64,000 nt of DNA, taken from Tyzzerella sp. An114. Lineage in GTDB: Bacteria > Bacillota > Clostridia > Lachnospirales > Anaerotignaceae. The notes under the pieces were generated by a model. That model searched no databases and had not been told where the DNA came from. It worked only from the letters and a program-made list of their open reading frames with translations. Shown piece after piece: positions 43,028 through 57,173 of the stretch (positions within the stretch are counted from its first letter, which is position 1; every line of letters begins with the position of its first letter). The stretch lies in NCBI RefSeq assembly GCF_002161055.1, contig NZ_NFLT01000006.1, positions 1 to 64,000 on the forward strand, read 5' to 3'. The position numbers were made by a program, and so were the translations under genes.

Positions 43028-43567
43028 TTATAATGATATAACACTTTCTCTCATTTCTCCTAAAGTAATTCCGCTATCTTTAATTTGACCATATGTAAAT
43101 TTTTTAAAATCTCTATATCTATTATAATCAATACCTATCTCAATAATCATATTAGCAGGTATCTTTTTTCTAAGAGCATTTTTTATATAAGTCTCATGTT
43201 CTTTAACAGACAAACTTAAAAGAACATACAATTTATATTCATCAAAGCTAATTTCAATAGTATAATTATACTTTTCCAAATAACTCGAAAGCCACTTATC
43301 AAGAGTATAATAATTAAAAGGAAGAACACCAGACCATTCAGAAAGTACAACTTTTCTTCTATCTTCAAGGGTACCATAAGGCTTATCTATACCAAGAAAT
43401 TTCTCACGTCTTTTTATACCTTCATCATCAGCAGTTTCAATCCAAAGATTATTCTCATATTTTTTAAAGGCATTATAAAGCTCTCCAAAAATTTTTTCTT
43501 CTACATTAAAAAGTTTTTTAAATTCATCTATATCAGCCATAAAAGAGGGAAGATGTTCAATAAGCAT
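43028..43567 (-). CDS. XkdU-like baseplate wedge / DUF2313 (YmfQ) protein
   Basis: A 179-residue protein (MLIEHLPSFMADIDEFKKLF...) resembling the DUF2313 family, which in PBSX and Mu-like tails lies directly after the baseplate J protein. It contains WSGVLPFNYYTLDKWLSSYLEKYN, a typical region. The ATG at 43567 is preceded by GAGGCGG. It is the last gene before the terminator; a tail fibre would be expected next and is missing. Confidence 0.8.
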   Translation of the reverse strand: MLIEHLPSFMADIDEFKKLFNVEEKIFGELYNAFKKYENNLWIETADDEGIKRREKFLGIDKPYGTLEDRRKVVLSEWSGVLPFNYYTLDKWLSSYLEKYNYTIEISFDEYKLYVLLSLSVKEHETYIKNALRKKIPANMIIEIGIDYNRYRDFKKFTYGQIKDSGITLGEMRESVISL

Positions 43568-43568
43568 A

Positions 43569-44639
43569 TTAAACCGCCTCCTCAAAAGTACCAAGAACAG
43601 GAACTTTATTATCAGAAACAATAATATTTTGTTTATTTCCATTTAAAGCAGTATCAGAAACATCAACAACACTGGCAATCTGAAGAATTCTAGCCTCAAT
43701 ATAACTTATTCTTACAACAAGCTCCTCATTTTCCTCCCAAGTACTTCTCAAACTTAAAAAATATTCTTCAAGAGACAACAGGGCTTCTTCCTCAATGTCC
43801 TGAAATGAAAAATCATCTTTATATATAATTTTCATAGATATATTAATATTTTCTGCAACAGCACCTTCAACAGTAACCCTATGACCAATAGGAGCAATTC
43901 CATTTCCCATACCATTCTGTTCAGGGTCAAGTTCATTTTGAACAGTTTCAACCTCAGCAGGTTTAGGAACACTGTGTTCTCTATCAGTAAAAACAATTCT
44001 CACAGTTCCACCACCATAATATACAGGATAAACCTTAACTCCACCAACAACACCAATAGACTTTACTTTATTTTTATAATCTGATATATTTCCTCCAAAA
44101 GACTCACTATTAAAACTCTCCATATATCTTTTTCTAAGGGAATTATCGTCCTCCTCGTCTTCACCGTCAGAATATATTTCTTTTATTTGAGCTTTAGCAA
44201 GTCCTTCTATAAAACCAACAGGAATAATCTCACCAGAATAAAAATTACCAATATTACCGCTTTTTTCACACTCCAACAAAAAAACACCCTGTGAAACTCT
44301 TGAAATTACAGTATAATAAATATCATTATAAGAAAATCTATCACCCTTAGACACATCAAAATAATTATTGTCACTGTCAAAAAATTCACCTACAAGAACA
44401 GCTTTAACGGCAGGTTTTCTTATAACACCTCTTTCAGCAACTCTCCTTGTCAAATCCTCACCAGTAGCAGTATCTCCATAACTTCTGTCTTGAAGCATTA
44501 AAATATCAGCATACATTTTTGCAGTTTCAGCAGAGTTAGGGGCTAAAGCATCAAAAATAATACTTCCCTGTCTTTTATCAATATTTCTTTCAATCATATT
44601 AAGTTTTTTTTCCATAAGTTCTTCATAAGTTTCATACAT
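43569..44639 (-). CDS. Baseplate J-like protein (XkdT)
   Basis: A 356-residue member of the Baseplate_J family, which forms the wedge of contractile tails. The start region MYETYEELMEKKLNMIERNIDKRQGSIIFDALAPNSAETAKMY and the central GDxFxYNxxxY and VKVYPVYYGGGTVRIVF segments are characteristic. The start ATG at 44639 overlaps the stop of the DUF2634 gene and has AGGTG nine bases upstream. Intact length. Confidence 0.9.
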   Translation of the reverse strand: MYETYEELMEKKLNMIERNIDKRQGSIIFDALAPNSAETAKMYADILMLQDRSYGDTATGEDLTRRVAERGVIRKPAVKAVLVGEFFDSDNNYFDVSKGDRFSYNDIYYTVISRVSQGVFLLECEKSGNIGNFYSGEIIPVGFIEGLAKAQIKEIYSDGEDEEDDNSLRKRYMESFNSESFGGNISDYKNKVKSIGVVGGVKVYPVYYGGGTVRIVFTDREHSVPKPAEVETVQNELDPEQNGMGNGIAPIGHRVTVEGAVAENINISMKIIYKDDFSFQDIEEEALLSLEEYFLSLRSTWEENEELVVRISYIEARILQIASVVDVSDTALNGNKQNIIVSDNKVPVLGTFEEAV

Positions 44640-45043
44640 CAAATACTCACCTCTTTACTCTCACGAATATTTCCAAATATACTCTCAACAGTAAAAGAAA
44701 CCTCTATACTATTTTTATTTTCCACAAACTGAAAATCAGAAATATTTTTTATTCTCTCATCAATAGATAAAGCATCTTTTATGCGGTTCTCTATCTCTGT
44801 AACAGCCAATTTTCTATCCATGCCTATAATATCAGAAAACTCAACACCATAATTCCAATCATAAATATCATATTTATATCTTTCAGTATTAATGATTTTA
44901 AAAATAGTATCTTTCAAAGCTTCAATACCATCTTTCTCTCCAACAATTCTATTTTTCAAAAAATCAACAGAATAGGTTTTAGAAGACATTTCACTTTCAG
45001 AATAATTATTATTAAAAATAATATTACTGTTTTCAGGCAACAA
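44639..45043 (-). CDS. DUF2634 (XkdS-like) baseplate protein
   Basis: A 134-residue gp25-like baseplate protein, with KTYSVDFLKNRIVGEKDGIEALKDTIFKII and the DWNYGVEFSDIIG segment typical of DUF2634. AGGAGG is followed seven bases later by TTG at 45043, giving MLPENSN; a second TTG follows directly. No ATG start is available. Confidence 0.86.
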   Translation of the reverse strand: MLPENSNIIFNNNYSESEMSSKTYSVDFLKNRIVGEKDGIEALKDTIFKIINTERYKYDIYDWNYGVEFSDIIGMDRKLAVTEIENRIKDALSIDERIKNISDFQFVENKNSIEVSFTVESIFGNIRESKEVSI

Positions 45044-45054
45044 AAAAACACCTC

Positions 45055-45363
45055 CTAAACACAGCGTCCCAAAATAACAAACTTCTGTCCACCAAAACAT
45101 TTTAAAAGTATGACAGAATCACCTATTTTAATTTCATTATCAGTATTACCAACACATTCTCCATGAGTTTCAACATTAACTTTAACATTTTGATTTACAA
45201 TATTATTAGTTTTATAAATAAATTCTTCAGTAAGTTTCAAACCATTATCAATTCCAATAATAATAGGTGAAACAGATATAACATCACCAAAAACAACAGT
45301 ATCAGGAACTATATTTTTTGCAGTATCATAAGCAATATTTTTTATAACATCAATGACAGCCAT
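45055..45363 (-). CDS. DUF2577 (XkdR-like) baseplate protein
   Basis: A 102-residue protein with an OB-like, strand-rich core, consistent with DUF2577/XkdR by length and position between the hub and DUF2634 genes. It includes VNVETHGECVGNTDNEIKIGDSVILLKCFGGQKFVIL. The ATG at 45363 follows TTGGAGGTG. Confidence 0.83.
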   Translation of the reverse strand: MAVIDVIKNIAYDTAKNIVPDTVVFGDVISVSPIIIGIDNGLKLTEEFIYKTNNIVNQNVKVNVETHGECVGNTDNEIKIGDSVILLKCFGGQKFVILGRCV

Positions 45364-45378
45364 AGTCACCTCCAAAAA

Positions 45379-46002
45379 TCAAAAACCTTTTCCAGAACAA
45401 TTATATTCCCTCAAAAGTCTTTCCTCCAAAGCATCAAAAATATAATCACAGTCTATATTTTCACATACATTTTTATTTTCATATATATTTTCAACATTTT
45501 CATAATTGTTATATGTATTTTCATTTTTATACTGTTCATAAATATTATTATCATAAACACGGTTATATCTTTTATAAATATTCTTAAAATCAAATATTTT
45601 TAAATCATCATTATATATATAGCTATTAAAAAAACTATCAAAATGCTCCATATAATAAAAATCATTAAAAACAAAATCATTTTTTGATTTCAAATACTCA
45701 TAATAAAAATTTTCAGAATAATTTTTAACAATATTATAAAAATCATCAAAATATTTATTATCTTTAAAATAAATATTTTCATATATATTTTTATTAAACT
45801 CTGAAACATTAAAAAAATTATTTAAAAAACTTTCTGTATTTTGATAAACATAACCATTATTATTTTCATCAAATTTTTTATAAATTTGACTATTTTTTTT
45901 AATATCATCAGAATATAAAGAAAACAATTCTATATCATAATCAAAGTCAAACCAATTATAAAATTTTTCAAATATATCAAAAAAGTATTCAATATAATCC
46001 AA
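45379..46002 (-). CDS. Phe/Tyr/Asn/Asp-rich 207-residue protein in the tape-measure position
   Basis: An unusual protein built almost wholly of Phe, Tyr, Asn, Asp, Glu, Lys and Ile, with very few Gly, Ala or Pro. It lies immediately after the tail assembly chaperone and its frameshift extension, where the tape measure gene normally is, and before the DUF2577 gene. The last 24 residues (IDCDYIFDALEERLLREYN...) recall the conserved C-terminal tail I associate with tape measures of related phages. The start TTG (46002) follows AAAGGTGATA. It could be a drastically shortened tape measure, or an unrelated aggregation-prone protein. The low-complexity body gives no fold clue. Confidence 0.6.
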   Translation of the reverse strand: MDYIEYFFDIFEKFYNWFDFDYDIELFSLYSDDIKKNSQIYKKFDENNNGYVYQNTESFLNNFFNVSEFNKNIYENIYFKDNKYFDDFYNIVKNYSENFYYEYLKSKNDFVFNDFYYMEHFDSFFNSYIYNDDLKIFDFKNIYKRYNRVYDNNIYEQYKNENTYNNYENVENIYENKNVCENIDCDYIFDALEERLLREYNCSGKGF

Positions 46003-46007
46003 AAATA

Positions 46008-46154
46008 TCACCTTTCCCCTTCAATCTCTCTCAAAACGTCACAGGAAGCAAATATAAAAGCCCTCTCATTTCTTCCCATATCAAAAAGATTTTTAGGAGT
46101 TATTCCAAAATCTCGGAGAGCAAGGAAAGCATAAGCACTTTCCCCACCCTCCAT
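46008..46154 (-). CDS. Tail assembly chaperone -1 frame extension (48-residue frame)
   Basis: The reading frame MEGGESAYAFLALRDFGITPKNLF... resembles the second-frame segment of phage tail assembly chaperones, with the pattern ITPxxLFDMxRNERAFIFASxDV. A canonical A AAA AAC heptamer at the end of the upstream chaperone frame allows a -1 shift that reads straight into it (through CTG ATT). It is therefore probably translated as the C-terminal part of a chaperone fusion; separate initiation at the ATG is possible. Confidence 0.78.
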   Translation of the reverse strand: MEGGESAYAFLALRDFGITPKNLFDMGRNERAFIFASCDVLREIEGER

Positions 46155-46156
46155 AA

Positions 46157-46561
46157 TCAGTTTTTTGCTTCTTCTTTAATATCTTCAAATTTTTTATCAA
46201 AACCGTTAATCTCTCTAACAGCCTTAACAAGATTTGAGTATTCCCCCGCATAAAGCATTGTTTTTAAAAGAGCCTCACCACCAAAAACTCCATAACTTTC
46301 CTGCAACTGAACACTATTAAGGTCAGGATTTTTAACACATCTTACACACAACTTACATATATATTTTTCAACATTATCTTTGACAACACCGTCAAAAAAT
46401 CCCACAGAGCGTTTTATATCCTCATTTTCTCTTTCAGTAACAGGTGCTATATACCATTTTTGAACATTACCCTTTTCATCTTTAAATCTATCACTGACAA
46501 AAACATATTCACCTTTATTTTTTAAAGCATTATCCATCAAAAAATATTTTAAATCTCCCAA
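46157..46561 (-). CDS. XkdN-like tail assembly chaperone
   Basis: A 134-residue protein with the XkdN-type opening MGDLKYFLMDNALKNKGEYVFVSDRFKDEKG and LCVRCVKNPDLNSVQLQESYGVFGGEALLKTMLYAGEYSNL. It keeps tape-measure and tube subunits soluble during tail assembly. The TTG start (46561) follows AGAGGTG. The frame ends GCA AAA AAC TGA, containing a slippery heptamer. Confidence 0.85.
   Translation of the reverse strand: MGDLKYFLMDNALKNKGEYVFVSDRFKDEKGNVQKWYIAPVTERENEDIKRSVGFFDGVVKDNVEKYICKLCVRCVKNPDLNSVQLQESYGVFGGEALLKTMLYAGEYSNLVKAVREINGFDKKFEDIKEEAKN
46160..46166 (-). promoter_or_regulatory. Slippery heptamer A AAA AAC for -1 ribosomal frameshift
   Basis: On the minus strand the chaperone frame reads GCA AAA AAC TGA; the phased heptamer A AAA AAC permits simultaneous slippage by one base and then reads CTG ATT ATG GAG in the next gene. 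This is the standard arrangement of tail chaperone genes such as lambda G/T. Confidence 0.85.
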
Positions 46562-46579
46562 AAAATCACCTCTAAAAAA

Positions 46580-47545
46580 TCAAACTCTTATATCAAGTTT
46601 TATAATATGTTTACCATTACTAAAAACATGAACAGATTTTTCAACAATCTTAAAATCACTTATACCTATCTCAGAAAAATCTTTCATATCAACAAAAACA
46701 GAATTTCCTGCTCTTACAGTAAAATCGTCTGTAAAAGCCTCAACAAAAAGTTTCTTTTTAACATCACCATTTATATTAAAGACACCATCACATAAAGCTT
46801 TCATCTGAGCAGTATTCATATCTTTATCAACTTTTTCATAATATTGAAGTCTGCCCCATTTTTTAATATTTTCAATATTTTCAGCCATATAAGAGAGATG
46901 AGCATTTTCCAATCTTTCTTTTTTAAAGAGTCTAACAGTATTATATGTATCCTTTGAAATATCCGTCTCATAAGAAAAATTAATTATATTAATTTCATCA
47001 GAAAAAACCGTATTACAAATCATATCACTTAAAGGTTTAAGGAAAAGTTTTCCGCAATCATCATAAAAACAATACTCAACACCATTAATCCGTCTTGTTC
47101 TATCAAGAGCATTTTGAATAATATCAATAAGTGTTTTACCTTCCTCAACGCGAGGCTCAATAACAACACCTGTATCACACAAACTACCAATCTCAAGACC
47201 ATAGTCACCACAAACAGTATTTATAACTTGTGTAGCAGTTTTTCCCGAATATATATAAGTATCTTTATTTTTAGACAGATAAAAAATCTGATTATATGCA
47301 GTAACATTTATAATTTGATTTTTATCTCTTTTCTTATTAGCAATAAAACCACAAAATCGCATAACATCATCAACATACAATATAACTTTATTCCCCTCAA
47401 TAAAATTAACAATACCGTCACGAATAACACTAAAGACAAGTATACCTGCAGTCCCTTTTATATATTCCGTCAAAGTGACATCTTTATATAAAATATCAGT
47501 AACATCAAAAACAGTACCATTATTATCAATAATAACCCTAATAAT
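46580..47545 (-). CDS. XkdQ-like tail hub / gpD-family protein
   Basis: A protein of about 321 residues resembling XkdQ: ITSVINDGTVFDVTDILYKDV-type start, then KGTAGILVFSVIRDGIVNFIEGNKVILYV, CGFIANKKRDKNQIINVTAYNQIFYLSKNKDTYIY. It forms the hub of the baseplate. The longest frame begins with GTG (47554) inside the GGGAGGTGA ribosome-binding site; the codon at the right distance is ATT at 47545, giving MIRVIIDNN. I use that start with caution. It overlaps no neighbour. Confidence 0.82.
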   Translation of the reverse strand: MIRVIIDNNGTVFDVTDILYKDVTLTEYIKGTAGILVFSVIRDGIVNFIEGNKVILYVDDVMRFCGFIANKKRDKNQIINVTAYNQIFYLSKNKDTYIYSGKTATQVINTVCGDYGLEIGSLCDTGVVIEPRVEEGKTLIDIIQNALDRTRRINGVEYCFYDDCGKLFLKPLSDMICNTVFSDEINIINFSYETDISKDTYNTVRLFKKERLENAHLSYMAENIENIKKWGRLQYYEKVDKDMNTAQMKALCDGVFNINGDVKKKLFVEAFTDDFTVRAGNSVFVDMKDFSEIGISDFKIVEKSVHVFSNGKHIIKLDIRV

Positions 47546-47550
47546 ATAAA

Positions 47551-48201
47551 TCACCTCCCAAGTTTTAAAACTTGACCAGGATAAATTTTATCAGGATTTG
47601 AAATACCATTAATATTAGCAATTTCAAAAAATTTACTACCGTCATTAAGCTGTGTTTTCGCAATTTTCCAAAGACTGTCTCCCTCTTTCACAACATAAGT
47701 ATCAGAAATATTTTTGCTTTCCCTCTCAACAGTATTTTTAGACACATTACCACTATCATCAATTTTAAGTTTAACAGATTTACAAGGAACAAACTCTCTC
47801 AAAGTCATAGTAACTTTAAAATCTCCCTCATCACCGGCATTTTCCAAGACAGTATAATCCTCAATAGTAGCCAAAATATTAGTATCAAAGCTTCTTTTAC
47901 CGTCAGGAAGAAGTCTTATAACAATAAAAGTAATAGGCTGTCCACTATTTTTAAAACTTCTCAATTTATTAAGATAATGTAAAGGCTCATAAGTTCCATA
48001 TCCACCTTGCCAAAAACCATTTCTCGAAAGTATAAATTCAAAATCCATCTCCCTAAGAGAGGCGGTTTTTATAACACCCACCTCTCCAAGTTTAATGACT
48101 TCCGCCTTTTCGTTTCTGCTTCCAATTTTTATTTTAAAGTATGAAGGGCTTGCAGGAAGCATAAAACTATCATTTCCACATTTAAAATAAAATCTATACA
48201 T
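47551..48201 (-). CDS. XkdP-like LysM protein
   Basis: A 216-residue tail protein. Residues 1-150 are the XkdP-type N-terminal region (MYRFYFKCGNDSFMLPASPSYFKIKIGSRNEKAEVIKLGEVGVIK), and the C-terminal 55 residues form a LysM domain (TYVVKEGDSLWKIAKTQLNDGSKFFEIANINGISNPDKIYPGQVLKL), which binds peptidoglycan or tail parts. The ATG at 48201 follows AAAGGTGGGG. In PBSX it follows the tape-measure gene; here it precedes the chaperone. Confidence 0.87.
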   Translation of the reverse strand: MYRFYFKCGNDSFMLPASPSYFKIKIGSRNEKAEVIKLGEVGVIKTASLREMDFEFILSRNGFWQGGYGTYEPLHYLNKLRSFKNSGQPITFIVIRLLPDGKRSFDTNILATIEDYTVLENAGDEGDFKVTMTLREFVPCKSVKLKIDDSGNVSKNTVERESKNISDTYVVKEGDSLWKIAKTQLNDGSKFFEIANINGISNPDKIYPGQVLKLGR

Positions 48202-48234
48202 AAGCCCCACCTTTCAATTAAAGTTCACAAAAAT

Positions 48235-48690
48235 TTAAAGCTCATCAAATTTATCAAGAAGGTCAACATCATTAAAAGTAAACTCCATATCTTCTTCAAG
48301 AGCCTCTTTCTCAACATCAAGTTTTGTAAAAATGATACTGTCAAGGTTTACACCTTTAAGGAGAACAGTCTGTGAGCCGGTACTGCTAGTAGGGTCTTCA
48401 TTAGTCACCATAATTTCAAAATATGTATCAATACCCTTTTTAATATAATCAAGCATCATACTTCTAAAAATACTGCTTACATAATAAACAGTCATTTTTC
48501 CGGTACCCTTCCATCCTCCCGCTTTATGCTGTTTACCTGTAACACCAAGTATAGGAATTTCTGTTTTTTTCTTTTCAACAGTAGCAGTAATATTTTTAAC
48601 CTGCATAAGTTCAGTTCTCTTATTATCTATAACAGCAAAGCAAGTACCTTGAGTTCCGTTTATAGTATCTTTTGCCCTAAGTATAGCCAT
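48235..48690 (-). CDS. Tail tube protein (XkdM, DUF2001)
   Basis: A 151-residue tail tube subunit with the XkdM layout: AILRAKDTINGTQGTCFAVIDNKRTELMQVKNITATVEKKKTEIPILG. The ATG at 48690 follows GGGGGGTGA. It lies after the sheath gene, the usual order in contractile tails. Confidence 0.9.
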   Translation of the reverse strand: MAILRAKDTINGTQGTCFAVIDNKRTELMQVKNITATVEKKKTEIPILGVTGKQHKAGGWKGTGKMTVYYVSSIFRSMMLDYIKKGIDTYFEIMVTNEDPTSSTGSQTVLLKGVNLDSIIFTKLDVEKEALEEDMEFTFNDVDLLDKFDEL

Positions 48691-48708
48691 AAATAAATCA
48701 CCCCCCAA

Positions 48709-50019
48709 TTATACTATTTCAACTTTCATATAAAGTTTTTCCATAGCATCAACAGGCATAACAGATAAATAAACATCAACATCAGTTTTTTCACTTCCCT
48801 GACTAACAGTAATATCATCAGAAGTAAAGTCCTCAATAGCACCTAAAGTCATAAGCTGTTCATGGTAACTTATAAGTTCAGATTTAAAAAGATTTCTTCC
48901 CTGTTTGTTATTACTCTGTTTACCTAAATAGTATTCGCTAAATATTCTAGCCACATCATTTCCAATAGAATCAAGAACTCTCATAATTCTATTTGATGAA
49001 AAATCACTGTTTTTATCTGACGAAAAACTTGTAAATGTATTTATATCTCTTAAAACTCTAACATTTTCACCGTCATTATAAAAAACAAGTTGACCTTCCT
49101 CAATAGCCTTTTCATAATCACTTTTTGAATATCTAGCAACAACAGAAAGTTCACCGTCATAAATAGCATTAGTAAGACTTTCATTAACTTCAGCCCCAGC
49201 CTCTTTTCCAGAAACCCAATAAACAAGACCTGTTTTCTGTTCTGATGTTTCATTTTTAACAGAAATAACACCCTCACAGTCAGCAGCAGAATAATCATGT
49301 AAAACAGTGACAAACTTTACGCCCTCATCGTCTCTCATTCTTTTTGTAAAGGATACAAAAAGTTTTTTAGTAGTTTCATCATCACCATCATATACAAGAG
49401 TATTAAAATCATAACACTCAATAAGACCTAAAAATTCAGAATAACTTTCTCCATTAACCTCTGTATTAGTTCCACCTTCAAGATTAATACCAGCTGTAAC
49501 TTCAAAAACTCCACTTCCCGAAAAATCTACAAAATCATTTGAAACAAGCTCAGAAATATCAGAAACAGTCTGAATATCTTTATAACTTCCATCAATAACA
49601 GTGACAACATCATAAAAACTATCATCATCAATATTTTTTCTGACAATAATACTTATATCATTACCTCTAACACCACTATATTTAGCGGTAACAGTAAGTC
49701 CTCCAGCAGTAGCAGTAGCTTTTTCACCTTTTCCATTAATTTTATAAAGAACAAGAGTTTTAGCTCCACAAAAAAGTTCTCTTATAGGTGCAAGTTTTTC
49801 ATGAGTATAACTATAACCGAATATTTTTTCAGCCTTAGTCATAAAGTCACCGGACTCAACAGTAAAAACATCATCGCTACCCCAATCAAGACTCAAAGGA
49901 ACAGCAACAACACCTCTTTCACCAATTCCGCCCATAGCTCTAGGCTTAGAAACAAAATTTATATAAGCTCCGGGCAAAATTTTATTTTGGGCAACAAAAG
50001 CACCTCCACCCAACGCCAT
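48709..50019 (-). CDS. Contractile tail sheath protein (XkdK)
   Basis: A 436-residue sheath subunit. The N-terminal MALGGGAFVAQNKILPGAYINFVSKPRAMGGIGERGVVAVPLSLDWG is the signature of phage and PBSX sheath proteins, and the C-terminal region with LRDINTFTSF and the RIFSEYYLGKQSNNKQGR segment is present. Intact, so the particle should have a contractile tail. The ATG at 50019 follows AAGGAGG. Confidence 0.92.
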   Translation of the reverse strand: MALGGGAFVAQNKILPGAYINFVSKPRAMGGIGERGVVAVPLSLDWGSDDVFTVESGDFMTKAEKIFGYSYTHEKLAPIRELFCGAKTLVLYKINGKGEKATATAGGLTVTAKYSGVRGNDISIIVRKNIDDDSFYDVVTVIDGSYKDIQTVSDISELVSNDFVDFSGSGVFEVTAGINLEGGTNTEVNGESYSEFLGLIECYDFNTLVYDGDDETTKKLFVSFTKRMRDDEGVKFVTVLHDYSAADCEGVISVKNETSEQKTGLVYWVSGKEAGAEVNESLTNAIYDGELSVVARYSKSDYEKAIEEGQLVFYNDGENVRVLRDINTFTSFSSDKNSDFSSNRIMRVLDSIGNDVARIFSEYYLGKQSNNKQGRNLFKSELISYHEQLMTLGAIEDFTSDDITVSQGSEKTDVDVYLSVMPVDAMEKLYMKVEIV

Positions 50020-50033
50020 AAAAACAACCTCCT

Positions 50034-50192
50034 TCAAACTTTATTTTTAAGATAATCATTTATAATACATTCCGCCTCTTTTTTTGTATAAAGTTTATTA
50101 TCCAAAAGACAGGCAGAAATAACATCTTTTGAAAAATTAAAACTTTTACTTTTCAAAAATTCATCTTTACTGAATTTACAATCACAATTCAA
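50034..50192 (-). CDS. Small 52-residue phage protein, TTG start
   Basis: A short frame between the tail terminator and sheath genes with a perfect AAGGAGG nine bases before its TTG start. The product MNCDCKFSKDEFLKSKSFNFSKDVIS... has N-terminal cysteines and a helical end (LYTKKEAECIINDYLKNKV). This position is often held by a small protein in PBSX-type modules. Function unknown. Confidence 0.72.
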   Translation of the reverse strand: MNCDCKFSKDEFLKSKSFNFSKDVISACLLDNKLYTKKEAECIINDYLKNKV

Positions 50193-50595
50193 TTTTTATA
50201 ACCTCCTTAGATGAAACAGTCTCCATAAGAGGAAAGTCCTCTGTCTCCTGACAACATAGAGTATAGGATACAGTATACCTTCTTTTATTGTCCAGAATAT
50301 CCATAGCAATTTTATCAGCCAAAACCTTTCTATCTAAAACAGAAATCTCACTTATTCCCGAACCAACAATACTATCAAACTCAAACAAATCACTTTTTTC
50401 TCTATCATTAAAAAACAAAATTTCAACATTAACAGAAAGCCTAAAGCGATTTCCAAGCATAGGAATTTTTTCAGAGCTTAAAACTTTAACCATAAAAAAA
50501 GGAATATCATCATCAATGACAACTTCATTACTATAAACATCAAAATCAAAAAGTTCTTTAAGTCTTGATATAACACCACGTCTTACATTTTCAAT
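50182..50595 (-). CDS. Phage tail terminator family protein (DUF6838-like), apparent ATT start
   Basis: Joins the tail tube to the neck. A continuous 137-codon frame begins upstream of the first ATG: IENVRRGVISRLKELFDFDVYSNEVVIDDDIPFFMVKV... GNRFRLSVNVEILFF. The N-terminal part fits the DUF6838 family better than a start at the later ATG (50493) would. The upstream gene ends GTGGTTCTCTGA; the GGAGGTGG in its end is at the right distance for ATT at 50595 (or CTG at 50598). No ATG, GTG or TTG lies in this frame upstream. The exact start needs testing. Confidence 0.75.
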   Translation of the reverse strand: MENVRRGVISRLKELFDFDVYSNEVVIDDDIPFFMVKVLSSEKIPMLGNRFRLSVNVEILFFNDREKSDLFEFDSIVGSGISEISVLDRKVLADKIAMDILDNKRRYTVSYTLCCQETEDFPLMETVSSKEVIKIEL

Positions 50596-50963
50596 CAGAG
50601 AACCACCTCCCTTCTTAAAGCCTTAATCTCTTTATGAGTTATATACGAAACACAATCACCACAAGCATAAAACATAATATTTTTACTATTTTCAAAATTT
50701 AAAACTTCAATATAACAGCCTTTATAAACATCAAAATCAACAGGAAAAACAATTGAAACTTCATACTCTTTTTTATAAACATTATTATTGTTAGATAGAC
50801 TTTCACCCTCATAATTAACACGACAATTAACATCAGAAGCAATTTTTATTTTAGAAAAAACACTTTCACCATAGTCATTAACATTTTTTTCAAGTTTATA
50901 TATATTGCAAGTATTATTAAGTAGCATTTTGGCATATTCACCGAAAACTTGAGAAAAAGCCAC
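50595..50963 (-). CDS. Head closure / minor capsid protein
   Basis: A 122-residue protein after the connector gene, in the position of the head-closure stopper of SPP1-type necks. It contains NTCNIYKLEKNVNDYGESVFSKIKIASDVNCRVNYEGE, typical for this neck family. GTG start at 50963 after AGGTGG. Its last codons carry the ribosome-binding site of the next gene. Confidence 0.75.
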   Translation of the reverse strand: MAFSQVFGEYAKMLLNNTCNIYKLEKNVNDYGESVFSKIKIASDVNCRVNYEGESLSNNNNVYKKEYEVSIVFPVDFDVYKGCYIEVLNFENSKNIMFYACGDCVSYITHKEIKALRREVVL

Positions 50964-50964
50964 A

Positions 50965-51321
50965 CTACCACCTCAACTTTCTAAAGGGGGAAAGCTCACA
51001 AATATATTTTTCAACAGAGTTTAAAAGTTCATCTTTACCAAAACCCTTTTCAAAAAACTCCAAACTTACAAGACCTTCCTTAATACTTTTAATGTCACCT
51101 TTTTCAGTGACAGAACATAAAATACTTTTAAAAAAATCAAAAGCAATATTTTTATGAACTCCAAAAAGTTTCTCGTCAAGAGTTTCAATATTACAGAATG
51201 ATTTTATATACTCCTCACTTCTTCTAAAGGCAAAATCAGCAATATTATTTTTATACTCATCATCACCAATATTTAAAATTTTCAAAAAATCCAAAAATCT
51301 CTCATCAAAACTTTCAGCCAT
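50965..51321 (-). CDS. Head-tail connector (gp6-like) protein
   Basis: A 118-residue helical protein in the position of gp6-like adaptor proteins, following the major capsid gene. It contains LDFLKILNIGDDEYKNNIADFAFRRSEEYIKSF and ends in a positively charged tail (SPFRKLRW). AGGTGG precedes the ATG. Intact. Confidence 0.78.
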   Translation of the reverse strand: MAESFDERFLDFLKILNIGDDEYKNNIADFAFRRSEEYIKSFCNIETLDEKLFGVHKNIAFDFFKSILCSVTEKGDIKSIKEGLVSLEFFEKGFGKDELLNSVEKYICELSPFRKLRW

Positions 51322-51341: not shown

Positions 51342-52259
51342 TTATTCTTTTGTAGAAACCCATAAGCCCTCAGTAGCGTTATCCATAACCCATATATCAT
51401 GATATTTTCTATAATCAATTTTCCAAGCATTAGCTTTCTGATTAGTCATAGGGTCAAAAATTCTTGTAACATCAGTTTTTGAAACAGCCACAGGAACATC
51501 TTTCACAGCAATAATCCAGTTAATATCCTTAGCCCCTTCAGTAGCATTAAATCCGCCATTCTCCTTGCCACCAGAAACACCGTCAAGGAATTCATATTCA
51601 GTTTTAAATCTTAAAGAAGGAACACGTATAATAGGACAACCGTCAATACTTCTAACTTTAATAACAGCATTACCCTGTTTGAACTCACCACTTTCAATAA
51701 TATTGCTTCCACCCTTAGCCATATCAAGCATATTAGCAGTAAAAGCAGACATAGTTACAATAATTTCTCTGCCATCTCCAACAACGTCTCTTATAGCAGT
51801 AATATCACTAAGAAGTTTTTCAAAAATAGTATCTTTAGCCGGTGTATATGTACCTACACGGCTTTTTTCAGTAGCAATAGCAAAAAGTCTGCTATATCTA
51901 TAAGCATCTATCTCAGGAATAACCTTAGTTCTCTGAAACTCGCCCATAATATTTCCGGCAACAAGAGCAAAATTAGTTTCATCAACATCAGCAGCATCAA
52001 TCTGAAAAGTTCTTCCTCTATCCTGAGAAAGTTTTCTAGTTTCATAGGATAAAGTAACAGAACCCTGAGCAAAACCTGTATCTCTGTCATAATCTCCCAT
52101 ACCACTTAAAACAATTTTAGGTATTTTAACCTCATCACCCCCCTGATACTTAACTTGTCCAGCATTAGCCTCCATCCAACCAGTTGTAGAGCCCTCAACA
52201 AGCTGTGCATCAAGAGCATCAGTAAAAATCTTTGCATATTCAATAGTATTAATCGCCAT
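51342..52259 (-). CDS. Major capsid protein
   Basis: A 305-residue capsid subunit starting MAINTIEYAKIFTDALDAQLVEGSTTGWMEAN, with SYETRKLSQDRGRTFQIDAADVDETNFALVAGNIMGEFQRT. The pattern is the usual capsid fold of PBSX and related siphophages. GGAGG precedes the ATG. Intact and full length. Confidence 0.92.
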   Translation of the reverse strand: MAINTIEYAKIFTDALDAQLVEGSTTGWMEANAGQVKYQGGDEVKIPKIVLSGMGDYDRDTGFAQGSVTLSYETRKLSQDRGRTFQIDAADVDETNFALVAGNIMGEFQRTKVIPEIDAYRYSRLFAIATEKSRVGTYTPAKDTIFEKLLSDITAIRDVVGDGREIIVTMSAFTANMLDMAKGGSNIIESGEFKQGNAVIKVRSIDGCPIIRVPSLRFKTEYEFLDGVSGGKENGGFNATEGAKDINWIIAVKDVPVAVSKTDVTRIFDPMTNQKANAWKIDYRKYHDIWVMDNATEGLWVSTKE

Positions 52260-52273
52260 AAAAAACTACCTCC

Positions 52274-52732
52274 TTACACTCTAAAAAGTCCCTTTTTAAA
52301 ATTTTTCTCAACACTGCTTTCACTTTTACCACTTTTCTTAAAACCATTACCATATCTCTTACTTTTTTCTTTTTCAAAAAGATAAGGATACTCCTCCATA
52401 AGTTTTTCAATATCAATTCCGCTAACATTACCCTCATCATCAACATGAACATTATCCATATCAACAAGAGCAGATAAAGCCTTAACATTACGACAATTTT
52501 TACTTCTCATAACGCCTTCAACAGCAATTTTTTTAATTTTTTCAACAAGTTTTTCATTTTCCAATTTTATCTGTTCTTTTTCATTTTTTATATTTTCATA
52601 ATCAGTATCAAATCCACCTTTTTCAAGCTCCTCAATAAACACACCAAGTATCTCAACAGCCTTATCCTCATCAATACCGATTTCAGTAATACCATCAATT
52701 ATTTTTGTCATTCGTTCCTCTGTCATATCCAA
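52274..52732 (-). CDS. Scaffold protein (phage minor structural GP20 type)
   Basis: A 152-residue acidic, coiled-coil protein (about residues 15-75) with the charged helix EEDKAVEILGVFIEELEKGGFDTDYENIKNEKEQIKLENEKLVEKIKKIA, as in scaffold proteins just upstream of the capsid gene. GGAG lies eight bases before TTG at 52732; it overlaps the end of the portal gene. The longer frame running further upstream is an artefact. Confidence 0.78.
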   Translation of the reverse strand: MDMTEERMTKIIDGITEIGIDEDKAVEILGVFIEELEKGGFDTDYENIKNEKEQIKLENEKLVEKIKKIAVEGVMRSKNCRNVKALSALVDMDNVHVDDEGNVSGIDIEKLMEEYPYLFEKEKSKRYGNGFKKSGKSESSVEKNFKKGLFRV

Positions 52733-54176
52733 AACCATTTCTCCTTTCCTCATCAATATTAAAAATCTCACTATTAACATCATCAACAAAAGGGTGTTTT
52801 CCCAAAAGTGTCTTTTCACTGACAATACCCTTTGACATAGCAAGTATTTCCATAGTTTCTTTGTCATCAGTTATAGAATTAAGATTTATATTTATATCCA
52901 CAATATTCATATCAAAAAACTCACCGTCAAAATAATCATTAGCCACAAACCAAAGGAAATCTTTCAAAGCCTTTTTAAGTCGTGGTATAACACCATTAAC
53001 CTTAAGATTAAACATAGAATATTGAAATTTTAAAGAAACACCACTAGGAGCACTTCCAAGTTTTTCAGTATCAGTATCAACACCCATACCAAACTGAAAA
53101 ATATCTCTTTTAATAAGTTTAAGCCAATCAATTCTACCCTGAACGGGAATATCAACCTGTTTAGCCTCAACTTTGCCGCTACTATCACTAATATGAACAG
53201 CTTTATTAATCTGTAACTTTTTAGCGATAGCAGAAGCAGTTTCACCTTCATAACCTTCAATAACCCAATAAAGTTCAACAAGGTCAATAAGATTATTAGT
53301 TCCTTCACTTAAAACCAAATCATAAGCATCAGACAAACTTTTTATAAGTTCCAAGTCAGTAGTACTTCTGCTATTATTTCTCATAACAACAAAAGGCACT
53401 CTCCCCCAACTTTCACCATATTTCTTATTATTTTCAAATCTATACCAATGGGGAACATTAAGACTTTCACCTTGCTCAGGTATAAAAACACCACTATTGT
53501 CTTCAATATAATAAGAAACATTTTCACCGGTCCACCATTCAGCTTTTCTCACAAGTCTCTCATAGCCTTTATCAAAGACACGAATATAATAATATCTTAT
53601 GACCTCTTTTATATCATTCTCATTATCATTATCAAAAACAGCTATAATCTCCTCTGCAGGAACAATACAGTATTTAAGCTCACCTTCACTATCATAATAA
53701 ATATGTATATATTCCAAACCTTTATTAGAAGCACCAACAACAAGGTCATAAACCGTTTGATTAAAGTAATCATCAGTAAACATAGAAAGTTTTTTTTCAA
53801 ACTCAGCACTTTTAAGACCTTCCCTAACAGTAATAGTAGGTTCACGACCGGCAATATAAGAAGCTTTTTGGTCAACAAGTATTCTATGAAAAGGATTTAC
53901 ACATTTGTTATTACTTCTATTAGGATTTTTAAAATTAACAATACCCTCATTTTCAAAGCCTTCATCATTAATACGAGTTTCAGAAAAAGGGTGCTCATTA
54001 AAATTATGATTTAAAATATCCTGTTCACATCTATAATATTTTTCACCCTCATACATTTTATGTTTATAAACACTGTTCTCATCATCATTTATAATCTCTC
54101 TCAATATTTCCCCGTCATTAAGCCTTCCCTCAGCAAAAAGTTTAGCCTTTATAAGGTCCATATCAGAAACAAACAA
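52695..54176 (-). CDS. Phage portal protein (SPP1 gp6-like)
   Basis: A 493-residue portal subunit, the dodecameric DNA gate. Family features include HRILVDQKASYIAGREPTITVREG, AWWTGENVSYYIEDNSGVFIPEQGESLNVPHWYRF and VDTDTEKLGSAPSGVSLKFQYSMFNLK. AAGGAG is one base from a GTG at 54185 and ten from the TTG at 54176; I use the TTG. No stop or frameshift. Confidence 0.9.
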   Translation of the reverse strand: MFVSDMDLIKAKLFAEGRLNDGEILREIINDDENSVYKHKMYEGEKYYRCEQDILNHNFNEHPFSETRINDEGFENEGIVNFKNPNRSNNKCVNPFHRILVDQKASYIAGREPTITVREGLKSAEFEKKLSMFTDDYFNQTVYDLVVGASNKGLEYIHIYYDSEGELKYCIVPAEEIIAVFDNDNENDIKEVIRYYYIRVFDKGYERLVRKAEWWTGENVSYYIEDNSGVFIPEQGESLNVPHWYRFENNKKYGESWGRVPFVVMRNNSRSTTDLELIKSLSDAYDLVLSEGTNNLIDLVELYWVIEGYEGETASAIAKKLQINKAVHISDSSGKVEAKQVDIPVQGRIDWLKLIKRDIFQFGMGVDTDTEKLGSAPSGVSLKFQYSMFNLKVNGVIPRLKKALKDFLWFVANDYFDGEFFDMNIVDININLNSITDDKETMEILAMSKGIVSEKTLLGKHPFVDDVNSEIFNIDEERRNGFGYDRGTNDKNN

Positions 54177-54213
54177 AAAACTCACACTCCTTAAAAAATA
54201 TTAGCTACTAAAA

Positions 54214-55467
54214 TCATCTAACAGTAACTTTTCTCATTTCACCCTCAAGAGAATACCTAACAGCATCTATTGAGTGGTTATCACGGTCGGGATATTTAGC
54301 TTTAAAACCACCAAAGCCGTCGTTTTCAAACTCATACCTCATAAACTCCTTTGAAGTAAAAGGACATCTTACAGGGTCAATAATAATTTCCTCAAGGGAT
54401 TGAAGCCATTTAATACCAAATTCAACAGAGTCATGACCTTTTTTAGCAGGCTCCGCCCTAACACCAAACTGACGTATTTCATCAATAGATTTTGGTTCAG
54501 CACTATCACAGACAACAACACCCTTATATATATTTTCATCATTTATCAAAGAAGCTGCTTGTATATTAGTCAAACCACTTTTATGAATTTCAAAAAAAAT
54601 ATATAATCTTTTTCTCATTCTGTCATAATGATTTACAGTATAATGTAAAGGGTCACAAGCATAACCCCAGTCAAGACCTCTATGAATTCTGTCAAACAAA
54701 TTAAGTTCATTGTCAGTAATCTCTCTCAATGTGACATTATTAAAAATTTCTCCCCCAGTTCCAGTAACCTCACCCAAGTATTCGTGCTCATAAATATCAG
54801 GTCTAGTTCTTTTAACGTGTTCAGCCTCAGCAAAAAACTGTTTACCAAGCCATTCTTTAGGCACATCCAAATATGTACTGTGATGAACCAGTTTATCATC
54901 TCTCACATCTAAAACCTCACTATTAACCCAACATCTTTGACTTTTAGGCGGATTATAGGAATAAAAAACAACAAACTTTTCACCACCACGCATAAGAGAT
55001 TGATTTATACTTCTAATTTCATCAATACCAGTAAATTCATCAACTTCCTCATACCATATAAATCTAGGATATCCCTTTAAAAACTTAGTAGATTTTATTT
55101 TCTTAGGATTATCCCCACCTCTAAATATAATTTTTTGACCTGTATTTTTGATAATAAGTTCAGGGACAGAAACTTTAACCTCCCATTTTTCAGATACTCC
55201 CAAAATATCAATAGCCCATCTAAGTTGCTCAAACACGCTATCACGAATATTGACACCAATTTTTCTAAGGGCAACAGCATTTGCATTTTTATCGGTCATC
55301 ATACCAAGAATTATCTCAACAGATATAAAAGAAGATTTAGTACTACCTCTACCACCTTTAAGCCAATAGTGAGTATGTTTAAAATTCATAATATCTCTAT
55401 GAACATCATAAAAACCTTTGCCTATAACATCAGAAAGTCTGGTTTCTCTAACTCCAAACAAAACCAC
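54214..55467 (-). CDS. terL: Terminase large subunit
   Basis: A 417-residue packaging motor. It carries the Walker A motif LKGGRGSTKSS near residue 37, Walker B PRFIWYEEVDEF, and nuclease Asp motifs LDWGYACDP and GVVVCDSAEPKS, plus DNHSIDAVRY. These fit the PBSX/Terminase_3 family that cuts and packages by headful. The start is unclear: GTG (55467) is near AGGTGG, with no better codon. Confidence 0.9.
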   Translation of the reverse strand: MVLFGVRETRLSDVIGKGFYDVHRDIMNFKHTHYWLKGGRGSTKSSFISVEIILGMMTDKNANAVALRKIGVNIRDSVFEQLRWAIDILGVSEKWEVKVSVPELIIKNTGQKIIFRGGDNPKKIKSTKFLKGYPRFIWYEEVDEFTGIDEIRSINQSLMRGGEKFVVFYSYNPPKSQRCWVNSEVLDVRDDKLVHHSTYLDVPKEWLGKQFFAEAEHVKRTRPDIYEHEYLGEVTGTGGEIFNNVTLREITDNELNLFDRIHRGLDWGYACDPLHYTVNHYDRMRKRLYIFFEIHKSGLTNIQAASLINDENIYKGVVVCDSAEPKSIDEIRQFGVRAEPAKKGHDSVEFGIKWLQSLEEIIIDPVRCPFTSKEFMRYEFENDGFGGFKAKYPDRDNHSIDAVRYSLEGEMRKVTVR

Positions 55468-55468
55468 C

Positions 55469-55855
55469 TCACTTTATGTCATCAATAATAACCACATTAA
55501 CGCCCTCATCGGAATTATCCTCAAAGAGCTGTTTCCGTTTGCTCAAAAGTTCAGCCGCTCTCATTCTCTCACGTATAGAGCCTTCAATATTTTCATTACT
55601 TCCTCTCATAACACCTGTAAGAAATTTGAGTATCTCATCACTTTCAGCTACATCTCTCCCGACCTCAGACTTTTCAGAGGATTTTTCCTCAGTTTTAAAT
55701 TTTTCAATAAACATTTTTACATCTTCATCTTTCAAAAGTCTTTTTCCATAACTTTCTTTATATCCAACAGCCTGTGAAGCTTTTTTCAAGTCTCCTCCAG
55801 TCTCTGTATAAACCTTGCTGAAAACACGTTTTTTCTCAGAAAAATCTCTCCTCAA
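55469..55855 (-). CDS. terS: Terminase small subunit
   Basis: A 128-residue helix-turn-helix protein, with SQAVGYKESYGKRLLKDEDVKMFI, matching the Terminase_2 small subunit of PBSX type (XtmA). The longest frame begins TTG with no ribosome-binding site; TTG at 55855 follows AAGGGGGGA and gives LRRDFSEKKRVFSKVYTETGGDLKKASQ. A coupling to the next gene is likely. Confidence 0.85.
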   Translation of the reverse strand: MRRDFSEKKRVFSKVYTETGGDLKKASQAVGYKESYGKRLLKDEDVKMFIEKFKTEEKSSEKSEVGRDVAESDEILKFLTGVMRGSNENIEGSIRERMRAAELLSKRKQLFEDNSDEGVNVVIIDDIK

Positions 55856-55917
55856 AATAATTCCCCCCTTTCTGTATCTTATAATAAATAATAAAAAGTC
55901 CAAAAAAGTCCCAACTT

Positions 55918-56400
55918 TCAAAAAATTTCATTTTCATGATTTTTTATTATCTCAATAAGGTTATCAATAGCCGCATCTTTTATCCTAAAAACTTGAGAAC
56001 GACTAACATTCATTTTCATAGCAACAAAATTAAAATCATATCCTTTACGATATTTCAAATATAAAAATTCCTGTTCAATAGGAATAAGTTCTTTTATGTA
56101 CTCGTCCATAATTCTTTTTTCTTTTATAATATTTTCAATATCCAAATAAAGTCTTTCAATTTCCTTTTCAAACTCATTTTTAATTTTTTCAAAATTCCGA
56201 ACAGTAGTATGTTCTATATCCATAAAATTTTGCGAATATATTTTCACTGTGTTCTCACAAGTCCGTTTAATCCTATTAATTTCTTCCTGTCTCATATCAC
56301 ACATATTCAAAGCACCACCCCATTTCAAAAGTCTCTTTTTAACAATACCTTTTTCACTTTTCAAAGAATTTTCAATATAATATTTATAGTTCTTTTCCAC
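55918..56400 (-). CDS. ArpU/sigma-region-4-like phage regulator
   Basis: A 160-residue protein with a coiled-coil middle and a C-terminal sigma-70 region-4-like helix-turn-helix: QEFLYLKYRKGYDFNFVAMKMNVSRSQVFRIKDAAIDNLIEII. Such proteins (ArpU/DUF1492 group) activate late phage transcription. GTG start at 56400 follows AGGGGGGAT. It is the first gene of the structural operon and could be its activator, consistent with its position next to the promoter. Confidence 0.8.
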   Translation of the reverse strand: MEKNYKYYIENSLKSEKGIVKKRLLKWGGALNMCDMRQEEINRIKRTCENTVKIYSQNFMDIEHTTVRNFEKIKNEFEKEIERLYLDIENIIKEKRIMDEYIKELIPIEQEFLYLKYRKGYDFNFVAMKMNVSRSQVFRIKDAAIDNLIEIIKNHENEIF

Positions 56401-56441
56401 AAAATCCCCCCTAAAAATATACAAACATTTGTTCGTATTTT

Positions 56442-56470
56442 ATAATACACCCATAAAATAAAAGTGTCAA
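56442..56470 (-). promoter_or_regulatory. Promoter of the phage-like structural operon
   Basis: On the minus strand TTGACA (56465-56470) and TATTAT (56442-56447) are 17 bases apart. Transcription would start near 56434 and run into the late-regulator and terminase genes. The imperfect palindrome ACAAACATTTGTTCGT beside the -10 could be the repressor operator. Confidence 0.85.
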
Positions 56471-56543
56471 TTATTTTCATTTCAAAAAACAGTTTGTTGA
56501 TTTTTTTAACTTACAAAATTAAAATATTAATGAGGTGAAATAA

Positions 56544-57173
56544 ATGTTTGATAAATATCTTTTCAAAAAGCAACTTGAAACACTTATGGAAGGAATGAAC
56601 ACTGTTGAATTTTCAGAAAAAACAGGATTTAACCGAACATATTTATCAAAATATATAAATTTAAAACTAGACCGTCCCCCATCACCAGAATTATTAAAAT
56701 CAATATCAGGAGAAAAAATATCATACATGGAACTTATGATTTCATGCGGATATATAGATAAAATAAACATACTAACAGAAGATATAATAAAAATTCCTGT
56801 AATAAACGATATTAAAGAAGTATTTAGAATAAATTCAGCTGAAAACATAGAAAAATATGAATATATAAGTAAAGCTGAAATAAATCCAGACTATGAATAT
56901 TTTTATTTAAAAGTAAAAGAAAACAATATGATAAATGCAAGAATACATGAAGGAGACTTAGTATTTGTCAGAAAACAATATGATGTAGATAATGGAGATA
57001 TAGCAGTTGTAATGACTGATGATAAAATATCAATAAAAAGGGTTATAAAAAAAGATGATATAATAGTTTTACAGTCTGAAAATCCAGACTATATGCCTTC
57101 AATATTTACAAAAAAAGACAATAATACTATAAAAATAATAGGCAAAGTAATTCATGTAAAATTTATTATTTAA
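56544..57173 (+). CDS. S24-like phage repressor with lost cleavage site and nucleophile
   Basis: A 209-residue repressor with an N-terminal helix-turn-helix (EFSEKTGFNRTYLSKYIN) and a C-terminal S24 peptidase fold. The nucleophile motif is normally G-D-S-M; here it reads ENNM (126-129), so Ser is Asn128. The catalytic Lys165 (IKRV) is retained. The linker, where Ala-Gly is cleaved in LexA-type repressors (KAGIP), reads KEVFRI. It should therefore not self-cleave after DNA damage. It is divergent from the structural operon and GAGGTGA precedes the ATG. Confidence 0.85.
   Translation: MFDKYLFKKQLETLMEGMNTVEFSEKTGFNRTYLSKYINLKLDRPPSPELLKSISGEKISYMELMISCGYIDKINILTEDIIKIPVINDIKEVFRINSAENIEKYEYISKAEINPDYEYFYLKVKENNMINARIHEGDLVFVRKQYDVDNGDIAVVMTDDKISIKRVIKKDDIIVLQSENPDYMPSIFTKKDNNTIKIIGKVIHVKFII

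Follow-up and report, generated by a model that had tools for sequence, protein, structure and literature searches.

Self-cleaving repressors of the S24 type, such as LexA, lambda CI and HdiR, are described as acting through a Ser-Lys dyad and being cut at an Ala-Gly or Cys-Gly scissile bond (PMC8565304). In coliphage 186, the CI repressor is accompanied by the LexA-controlled antirepressor Tum (PMC7708051, PMC3121763), and the Gifsy prophages are reported to have a non-cleavable repressor and an induction that requires cleavage of LexA (PMC3121763). According to the same account, LexA activates rstR transcription in CTXphi from a site overlapping the rstR promoter (PMC3121763). In GIL01, which has a Gram-positive host, host LexA is described as repressing a phage promoter, strengthened by gp7, a protein reported to have no DNA binding of its own (PMC4551915).

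The locus presented here lies in a window (the whole stretch of DNA analysed) of 64,000 nucleotides, and is composed of a 13–14 kb phage-like gene run on the minus strand, i.e. the module, and a divergent S24-type repressor gene (Table 1). The likeness to 186 lies in the C-terminal fold of the repressor, matched by our model (2fkd_A), and in SOS control through LexA instead of repressor cleavage, a role which LexA would also have here. In 186, however, it is the antirepressor that is expressed from a LexA-regulated promoter, whereas the LexA-like box of the window lies on the structural module's own promoter; in addition, cleavable orthologs exist here, so that the loss of cleavage appears lineage-specific and repeated. 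The Gifsy prophages differ in acting via a LexA-controlled antirepressor. With CTXphi RstR and LexA, the locus would share the joint presence of a phage repressor and host LexA on one control region, as judged here by sequence alone, but CTXphi is a filamentous phage, and LexA would here repress a structural module. The likeness to GIL01 is that of host LexA at a phage promoter in a Gram-positive host, with the box of the window read from its sequence; unlike gp7, the second factor here carries an HTH region itself, and there are presumed operators for it. Because of these precedents in 186, Gifsy, CTXphi and GIL01, the control mode is a variant of an already known kind, and the unusual part is the repeated disarming of one repressor in a vertically inherited module.

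The module itself resembles PBSX of Bacillus subtilis, a compact contractile phage-like element, and includes an XkdN-like gene. We take this likeness to extend to gene order and to an Xpf-like activator. PBSX differs in its repressor, which is Xre (PMC8270828), and the module here is often located at rnr and has no recognised tape-measure gene. FpGTA of Faecalibacterium, called the second Gram-positive example after PBSX (PMC12946183), is likewise a short phage-like cluster for packaging that is widespread in gut Clostridia; it is described as podovirus-like, whereas the module, known from its genes, has sheath and baseplate genes. No paper joining "Anaerotignum" and "gene transfer agent" was found in the literature search, the matches listed included no description of the module, and a narrow query for S24 repressors without the catalytic serine gave no match.

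Table 1. Features of the repressor gene, the control region and the module in the window.
Feature	Position	Strand	Basis or remark
Repressor: N-terminal HTH region (about 1-72), linker, S24-fold C-terminal domain	56544..57173	+	209 aa
Glu92-Val93 codons, at the place of the Ala-Gly cleavage pair	56817..56822	+	alignment of 16 orthologs
Asn128 codon AAT, at the S24 nucleophile Ser position	56925..56927	+	ortholog alignment, codon comparison
Lys165 codon, catalytic Lys retained	57036..57038	+	ortholog alignment
B2 operator-like motif GTTGATTTTTTTAAC, 9 of 10	56496..56510	+	near repressor gene start
B1 operator-like motif GTCAATTATTTTCAT, 9 of 10	56466..56480	+	overlaps module -35
Predicted sigma-70-type module promoter (TTGACA, 17, TATTAT)	56442..56470	-	consensus match
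LexA-box-like site CGAACAAATGTTTG	56422..56435 (core 56423-56434)	-	7 bases downstream of module -10
First module gene, regulator or sigma-like protein	55918..56400	-	PHROG 36
Terminase small subunit	55469..55921	-	Pfam/PHROG-type searches
Terminase large subunit (TerL)	54214..55467	-	PHROG
Portal protein	52695..54185	-	PHROG
Head scaffolding protein	52274..52867	-	PHROG; overlaps portal ORF, true start may lie later
Major head protein	51342..52259	-	PHROG
Two head-tail adaptors	50595..51321	-	PHROG
Two small proteins	50034..50493	-	PHROGs without known function
Contractile tail sheath	48709..50037	-	PHROG
Tail protein	48235..48708	-	PHROG 365
LysM protein, tail protein, XkdN-like protein	46157..48210	-	PHROG, Pfam
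210-aa Asn/Tyr-rich ORF	45379..46011	-	no PHROG match
PHROG 579 protein, two baseplate wedge proteins, tail protein ending the module	43028..45375	-	PHROG

Cleavage residues of the repressor and their loss

The C-terminal domain of the repressor has the S24 fold, as found both by the Pfam Peptidase_S24 match (E 5.1e-24, residues 85–203) and in an AlphaFold model based on a 14-row alignment (mean pLDDT 86.7, pTM 0.58), in which the cleavage-site stretch 91–100 had a mean pLDDT of 51. The N-terminus was weakly recognised as HTH_3 (17.4 bits against a cut-off of 23). By sequence search, the best solved relative was the Thermotoga LexA 3k2z, and LexA structures were also the top PDB matches of the model; lambda CI and coliphage 186 CI were matched as well, the 186 repressor (2fjr_A) at rank 34 and its C-terminal domain (2fkd_A) at rank 42.

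On the basis of the ortholog alignment, the S24 motif G-[DN]-S-M corresponds to E126-N127-N128-M129 of the window repressor, and the Ala-Gly pair to E92-V93, followed by F94. The Ser-Lys dyad is accordingly incomplete, with Asn128 at the Ser position and Lys165 kept, and the Ala-Gly (or Cys-Gly) scissile bond is absent, replaced by Glu92-Val93. A preliminary description of this DNA had read the motif as ENNM with Asn for Ser, the cleavage site as Glu-Val-Phe and the catalytic Lys as retained, and all three readings were borne out by the alignment with the related S24 repressors. Codon 128 is AGT in both congeners and AAT in the window, and no Ser was present in residues 119–135 around the nucleophile site. 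RecA-stimulated autocleavage should be impossible, because nucleophile and scissile pair are both missing, which supports the same expectation in the preliminary description, and losses in two other lineages fit with it. The S24 domain of the window lineage should thus be a dead protease, still able to fold and probably to dimerise, in a repressor that can probably still bind its operators but is unable to cut itself upon RecA activation.

An ortholog was identified at E up to 1e-30 in 16 of the 58 genomes of the family, which we take to be Anaerotignaceae (Candidatus Fimicola is placed in Lachnospiraceae by NCBI), and among 392 genomes drawn from the order, none beyond these 16 gave a match when E was allowed to reach 1e-28. 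Named carriers include Anaerotignum lactatifermentans, Candidatus Fimicola merdigallinarum, Clostridium sp. MD294 (ASF356) and Candidatus Coprocola pullicola. Of these, A. lactatifermentans DSM 14214, which is in culture, combines a cleavable repressor with a LexA-like box, and the ortholog of Ca. Fimicola merdigallinarum (G001) is intact. When genome contigs were searched for the repressor, the whole-protein query gave no match and the alignment query gave the 16 named loci.

Ala-Gly, Ser and Lys were all kept in 12 of the 16 orthologs, among them one cut by a contig end (G077) and one frameshifted behind the Lys (G061). Over the whole set, the site was lost in four, Ser in two and Lys in one. 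The site-less orthologs were those of the window (genome G000), of G003, in which Ser has also changed to Ala and Lys to Thr, and of the sister pair G033 and G012, with Ser and Lys kept. Most simply, these represent three separate events (window, G003, G033+G012), because each has intact relatives on the 17-row repressor tree, although the fork of G000 with its congener G001 is weak (support 80/57). Site loss as the normal state of the repressor family was ruled out by the 12 intact orthologs; as read from the alignment, loss of cleavage is lineage-specific and not the background state. The motif G[DEN]SM was present in all 12 non-orthologous S24 proteins of relatives that were read (20 such loci), and in the LexA of the window genome, where Ala-Gly, Ser and Lys are all kept.

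The outgroup of the tree, outside the 16 orthologs, was a 44% homolog from a MAG named Thermincola (L072:4476-5111), with Ser kept, Lys replaced by Arg and the cleavage pair reading Ser-Gly. The most degraded repressor was that of G003, a Candidatus Epulonipiscium MAG (L044), a locus without a LexA-like box and with three full copies of motif B. In G061 (L056), in addition to the repressor frameshift behind the catalytic Lys, TerL, tube, LysM, one baseplate-end gene and rnr were each in two pieces, and these splits may derive from assembly error.

Domain branch lengths, computed on a fixed topology for the window against its two congeners, were similar in the HTH region (window 0.084, congeners 0.066 and 0.082), about five times greater in the linker of the window (1.36 against 0.27 and 0.30), and about twice as great in its S24 core (0.285 against 0.153 and 0.128). 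The linker had the greatest branch length also in G003 (2.37) and in the stem of G033+G012 (0.70). Linker identity of the window to the two congeners was 39% and 36%, compared with 60% between the congeners. By codon counts, the excess holds in the linker (pN 0.40 vs 0.20) and is marginal in the S24 core (pN 0.157 and 0.147 vs 0.146), and relaxed constraint is therefore clear in the linker only. Self-cleavage was therefore abandoned in a protein of which the DNA-binding region was preserved. The relative rate of the repressor in the window lineage, 2.29, was the highest of 24 genes.

Gene content and inheritance of the module

The module ends next to purE and the RNB-domain gene rnr. Its first gene was set to start at the GTG at 56400 by a ribosome-site-like run, where the ORF list has a TTG at 56424. 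The PHROG 365 protein is, by its position, presumably the tail tube, and the xkd-type labels on module genes are likewise our own assignments. The LysM protein is labelled endolysin in PHROG; it sits among tail genes and has a Pfam LysM and a weak Dit-like tail match. The PHROG search covered 21 proteins including the repressor (the outermost tail protein without its first 25 residues, shorter ORFs left out), and among these no integrase or replication gene was recognised by PHROG labels, nor any tape-measure or holin gene. No long tape-measure gene was recognised at 45379-46011, the place of the fast-evolving 210-aa ORF. The number of XkdN-like matches is one in the window and in each congener, and two in many relatives outside the genus.

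None of the module frames listed for the window is interrupted. Relative rates in the window lineage were ordinary, at 1.01 for the capsid, 0.83 for TerL, 0.63 for the portal, 1.47 for the sheath and 1.78 for the XkdN-like gene, the last two ranking next below the repressor. For six structural genes, dN/dS was 0.10–0.27 in window pairs and 0.10–0.19 between the congeners. The window module is without sign of decay. Directly after the repressor, in the window and both congeners, follows a gene for a PEP-utilising phosphotransferase (enzyme I-like; 57242-58957 in the window), of which no counterpart was seen in the sequences taken from other genera, most of them reaching about 2 kb past the repressor.

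The tree of four module proteins and the rnr tree had 12 of 13 splits in common over 16 genomes, and the one discordant split had 5% support in the module tree (G012, G061, G077, G071, G032, G064, G065 and G069 are left out of both trees). This agreement marks the module as an old element passed on by vertical descent. This inheritance and the lack of a recognised integrase or replication gene among the 21 proteins are traits of gene transfer agents, and the module is possibly a gene transfer agent or a tailocin-like element. It has rnr as its neighbour in 10 of the 16 genomes with the repressor and in four of the eight examined without it (G009, G011, G067, G071). In the other repressor-bearing genomes, rnr was on another contig or not found; in G076, assembled as one contig, it lies about 110 kb from the module. 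In Clostridium sp. MD294 (ASF356), module and rnr are separated by about 110 kb. Over the family of Anaerotignum as a whole, the contractile module was seen at loci L042-L056, L112 and L144-L150, often beside rnr.

TerL alone was rejected as a marker of the module, as related TerLs were present in 41 of the 58 genomes of the family; the module was recognised instead by how closely capsid and sheath matched, by its first regulator gene and by its location at rnr. Wide stretches with a related TerL in G000 (contig C7), G072 and G010 proved not to be the module. The one on contig C7 of the window genome (L094, 8001-28000) is a second, related phage region, with identities to the module of 65% in TerL, 49% in the capsid and 45% in the sheath. 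The eight repressor-less modules are the number examined and thus a lower bound, since most other TerL carriers were taken as the gene only or left out; two of the eight, G064 and G069, are on short contigs without a capsid gene. In G032, G064, G065 and G069 the surroundings of the regulator gene are truncated or ambiguous, and the repressor is called absent from the genome search at E 1e-30, in genomes 77–99% complete. Read on midpoint-rooted trees, the repressor would most simply be ancestral, with losses on the G009 branch and on that of G011/G067.

LexA-like box and presumed operator in the control region

The promoter and LexA-box calls were made against the usual consensus sequences. The 14-bp pattern CGAACNNNNGTTYG, chosen after the lexA boxes and the window box had been seen together, occurs at four places in the 2.75-Mb genome, of which the lexA promoter holds two, a 403-aa ORF one and the module promoter one, against one forward and one reverse for the control pattern. 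The strict form GAACNNNNGTTC is hardly commoner than its control (14 genome places vs 11); among its matches are the third lexA box and, in front of recA, GAACACAAGTTC. The window box, with 7 of 8 one base off the strict palindrome, falls outside these matches, and its shuffle p was 0.036 in shuffles of that region alone. In the repressor-less modules treated below, the boxes GAACAAACGTTC and GAACAAACATTC are identical to core sequences of SOS boxes tabulated for phage SPbeta (PMC8270828).

Of the 17 repressor-bearing loci, 15 had a LexA-like box (at least 7 of 8) at the module promoter, located either in the spacer or directly behind the -10, and the box is common to the window and both congeners; the two loci without it were G003, with an uncleavable repressor, and G060, with a cleavable one. 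Boxes were also found in six of the eight examined repressor-less modules (G009, G011, G032, G067, G069, G071). These counts, together with the 14-bp form that the window box shares with two lexA-promoter boxes, do not support the expectation in the preliminary description that SOS induction of the module should fail, and point to a putative LexA site in the module promoter. A scan of 20 loci, limited to the 160 bases before the first module gene, gave a box of at least 7 of 8 in 13 (shuffle p 0.000 to 0.072). Of the remaining seven, G030, G033, G012, G061 and G062 carry the box further upstream; G003 and G060 had none there either. The sole box match of G064 lies far upstream; G065 had no regulator-gene match, and its 7 of 8 match about 460 bases before the terS match was not counted; G077, its gene cut by the contig end, is outside the motif counts. 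A palindrome search picked up the LexA-like box in just two loci, G001 and G002, and no site common to all loci.

A second motif (motif B), GTYRA-N5-TTCAC with at least 9 of 10, was found in all 17 repressor-bearing loci against one of seven repressor-less loci (Fisher p 5e-5, relatedness ignored). The lone repressor-less locus was G009, of which the congener G022 has the repressor. Motif B begins 10 bases before the -35 and overlaps it in seven loci including the window, with the same offset in G003, G030, G061 and G062, and lies elsewhere than over the module -35 in G025, G076, G033, G012, V73 and V74. Both copies in the window are imperfect. Motif B is presumed to be the operator of the repressor. 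The boxes in the other loci and motif B were found by reading the regions, and because motifs found in these regions were then counted in them, the shuffle and Fisher values are descriptive and not independent tests.

Candidate SOS control of the module

We find it fairly probable that host LexA is the SOS switch of the module and the repressor a second lock deaf to RecA. LexA would bind the box at the start of the module promoter, giving the SOS input, and the repressor would bind motif B as a RecA-insensitive lock on the module promoter and on its own promoter; release of LexA would then suffice, or combine with a second signal, to start transcription of the module. Binding of LexA at the box and of the repressor at motif B, and induction of the module, are what we infer from the sequences. 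The loci of the family form a series, with a cleavable repressor and the box, an uncleavable repressor and the box (window, G033, G012), the box without a repressor, a cleavable repressor without the box (G060), and neither self-cleavage nor the box (G003). In the simplest account, self-cleavage of the repressor would have become dispensable with LexA as the SOS switch. LexA does not replace autocleavage everywhere, because G003 combines an uncleavable repressor with the lack of a LexA-like box; this locus shows that a module can lose both SOS inputs.

With the repressor still on B1 over the -35, release of LexA alone might not open the promoter. The preliminary description had left the choice between a module locked off and one controlled by another signal, of which the latter now has a first candidate in host LexA, and the former keeps some probability as the presumed operators persist. 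A module locked off for good, a silent relic heading to decay under an uncleavable repressor, is in our judgement unlikely. Such a lock is consistent with the persistence of B1 and B2, with the conserved HTH region, and with the lack of a recognised tape-measure or holin gene among the 21 proteins, but the frames are open, the module genes evolve at rates resembling those of the congeners with a cleavable repressor (TerL dN/dS 0.10–0.13), and the LexA-like box is shared with these congeners. The intact module is not decisive here, because a recent loss leaves too little time for decay.

Removal of the uncleavable repressor by a small antirepressor protein, SOS-induced or otherwise induced in the manner of coliphage 186 or Gifsy, is a rather remote prospect. 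The fold matches of the repressor do include 2fjr_A and 2fkd_A of 186, itself described as induced through the LexA-controlled Tum (PMC7708051), and non-cleavable repressors are reported together with LexA-controlled antirepressors in Gifsy (PMC3121763), but for this module there is no known candidate. That LexA alone controls the module, with the repressor confined to autoregulation or another target, we hold to be very improbable; repressor-less modules of other genera do have the LexA-like box at the same place, yet the window keeps B1, though imperfect, over its module -35. Intact autocleavage, hidden by a sequencing error or served by an alternative nucleophile, is scarcely credible, for although the change of Ser to Asn takes a single base, an error in one codon is insufficient when the scissile pair is lost too and the linker as a whole has diverged, losses recur in other orthologs, and the surroundings of the site contain no Ser.

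Returning to LexA as the switch and the repressor as the lock, a wider reading is possible, and we hold it only tentatively: the family would have domesticated a contractile phage module, similar to a gene transfer agent or a tailocin, the control of which moved repeatedly from a self-cleaving repressor to host LexA, with cleavage disabled in three lineages and the repressor gene lost in others. The promoter of the window would then be an AND gate, needing both the fall of LexA and a second signal, other than DNA damage, that releases the repressor. The loci provide a natural series in one bacterial family, in which host capture of the control of a phage module is directly testable, and they warn that loss of repressor autocleavage should not be read as loss of SOS control.
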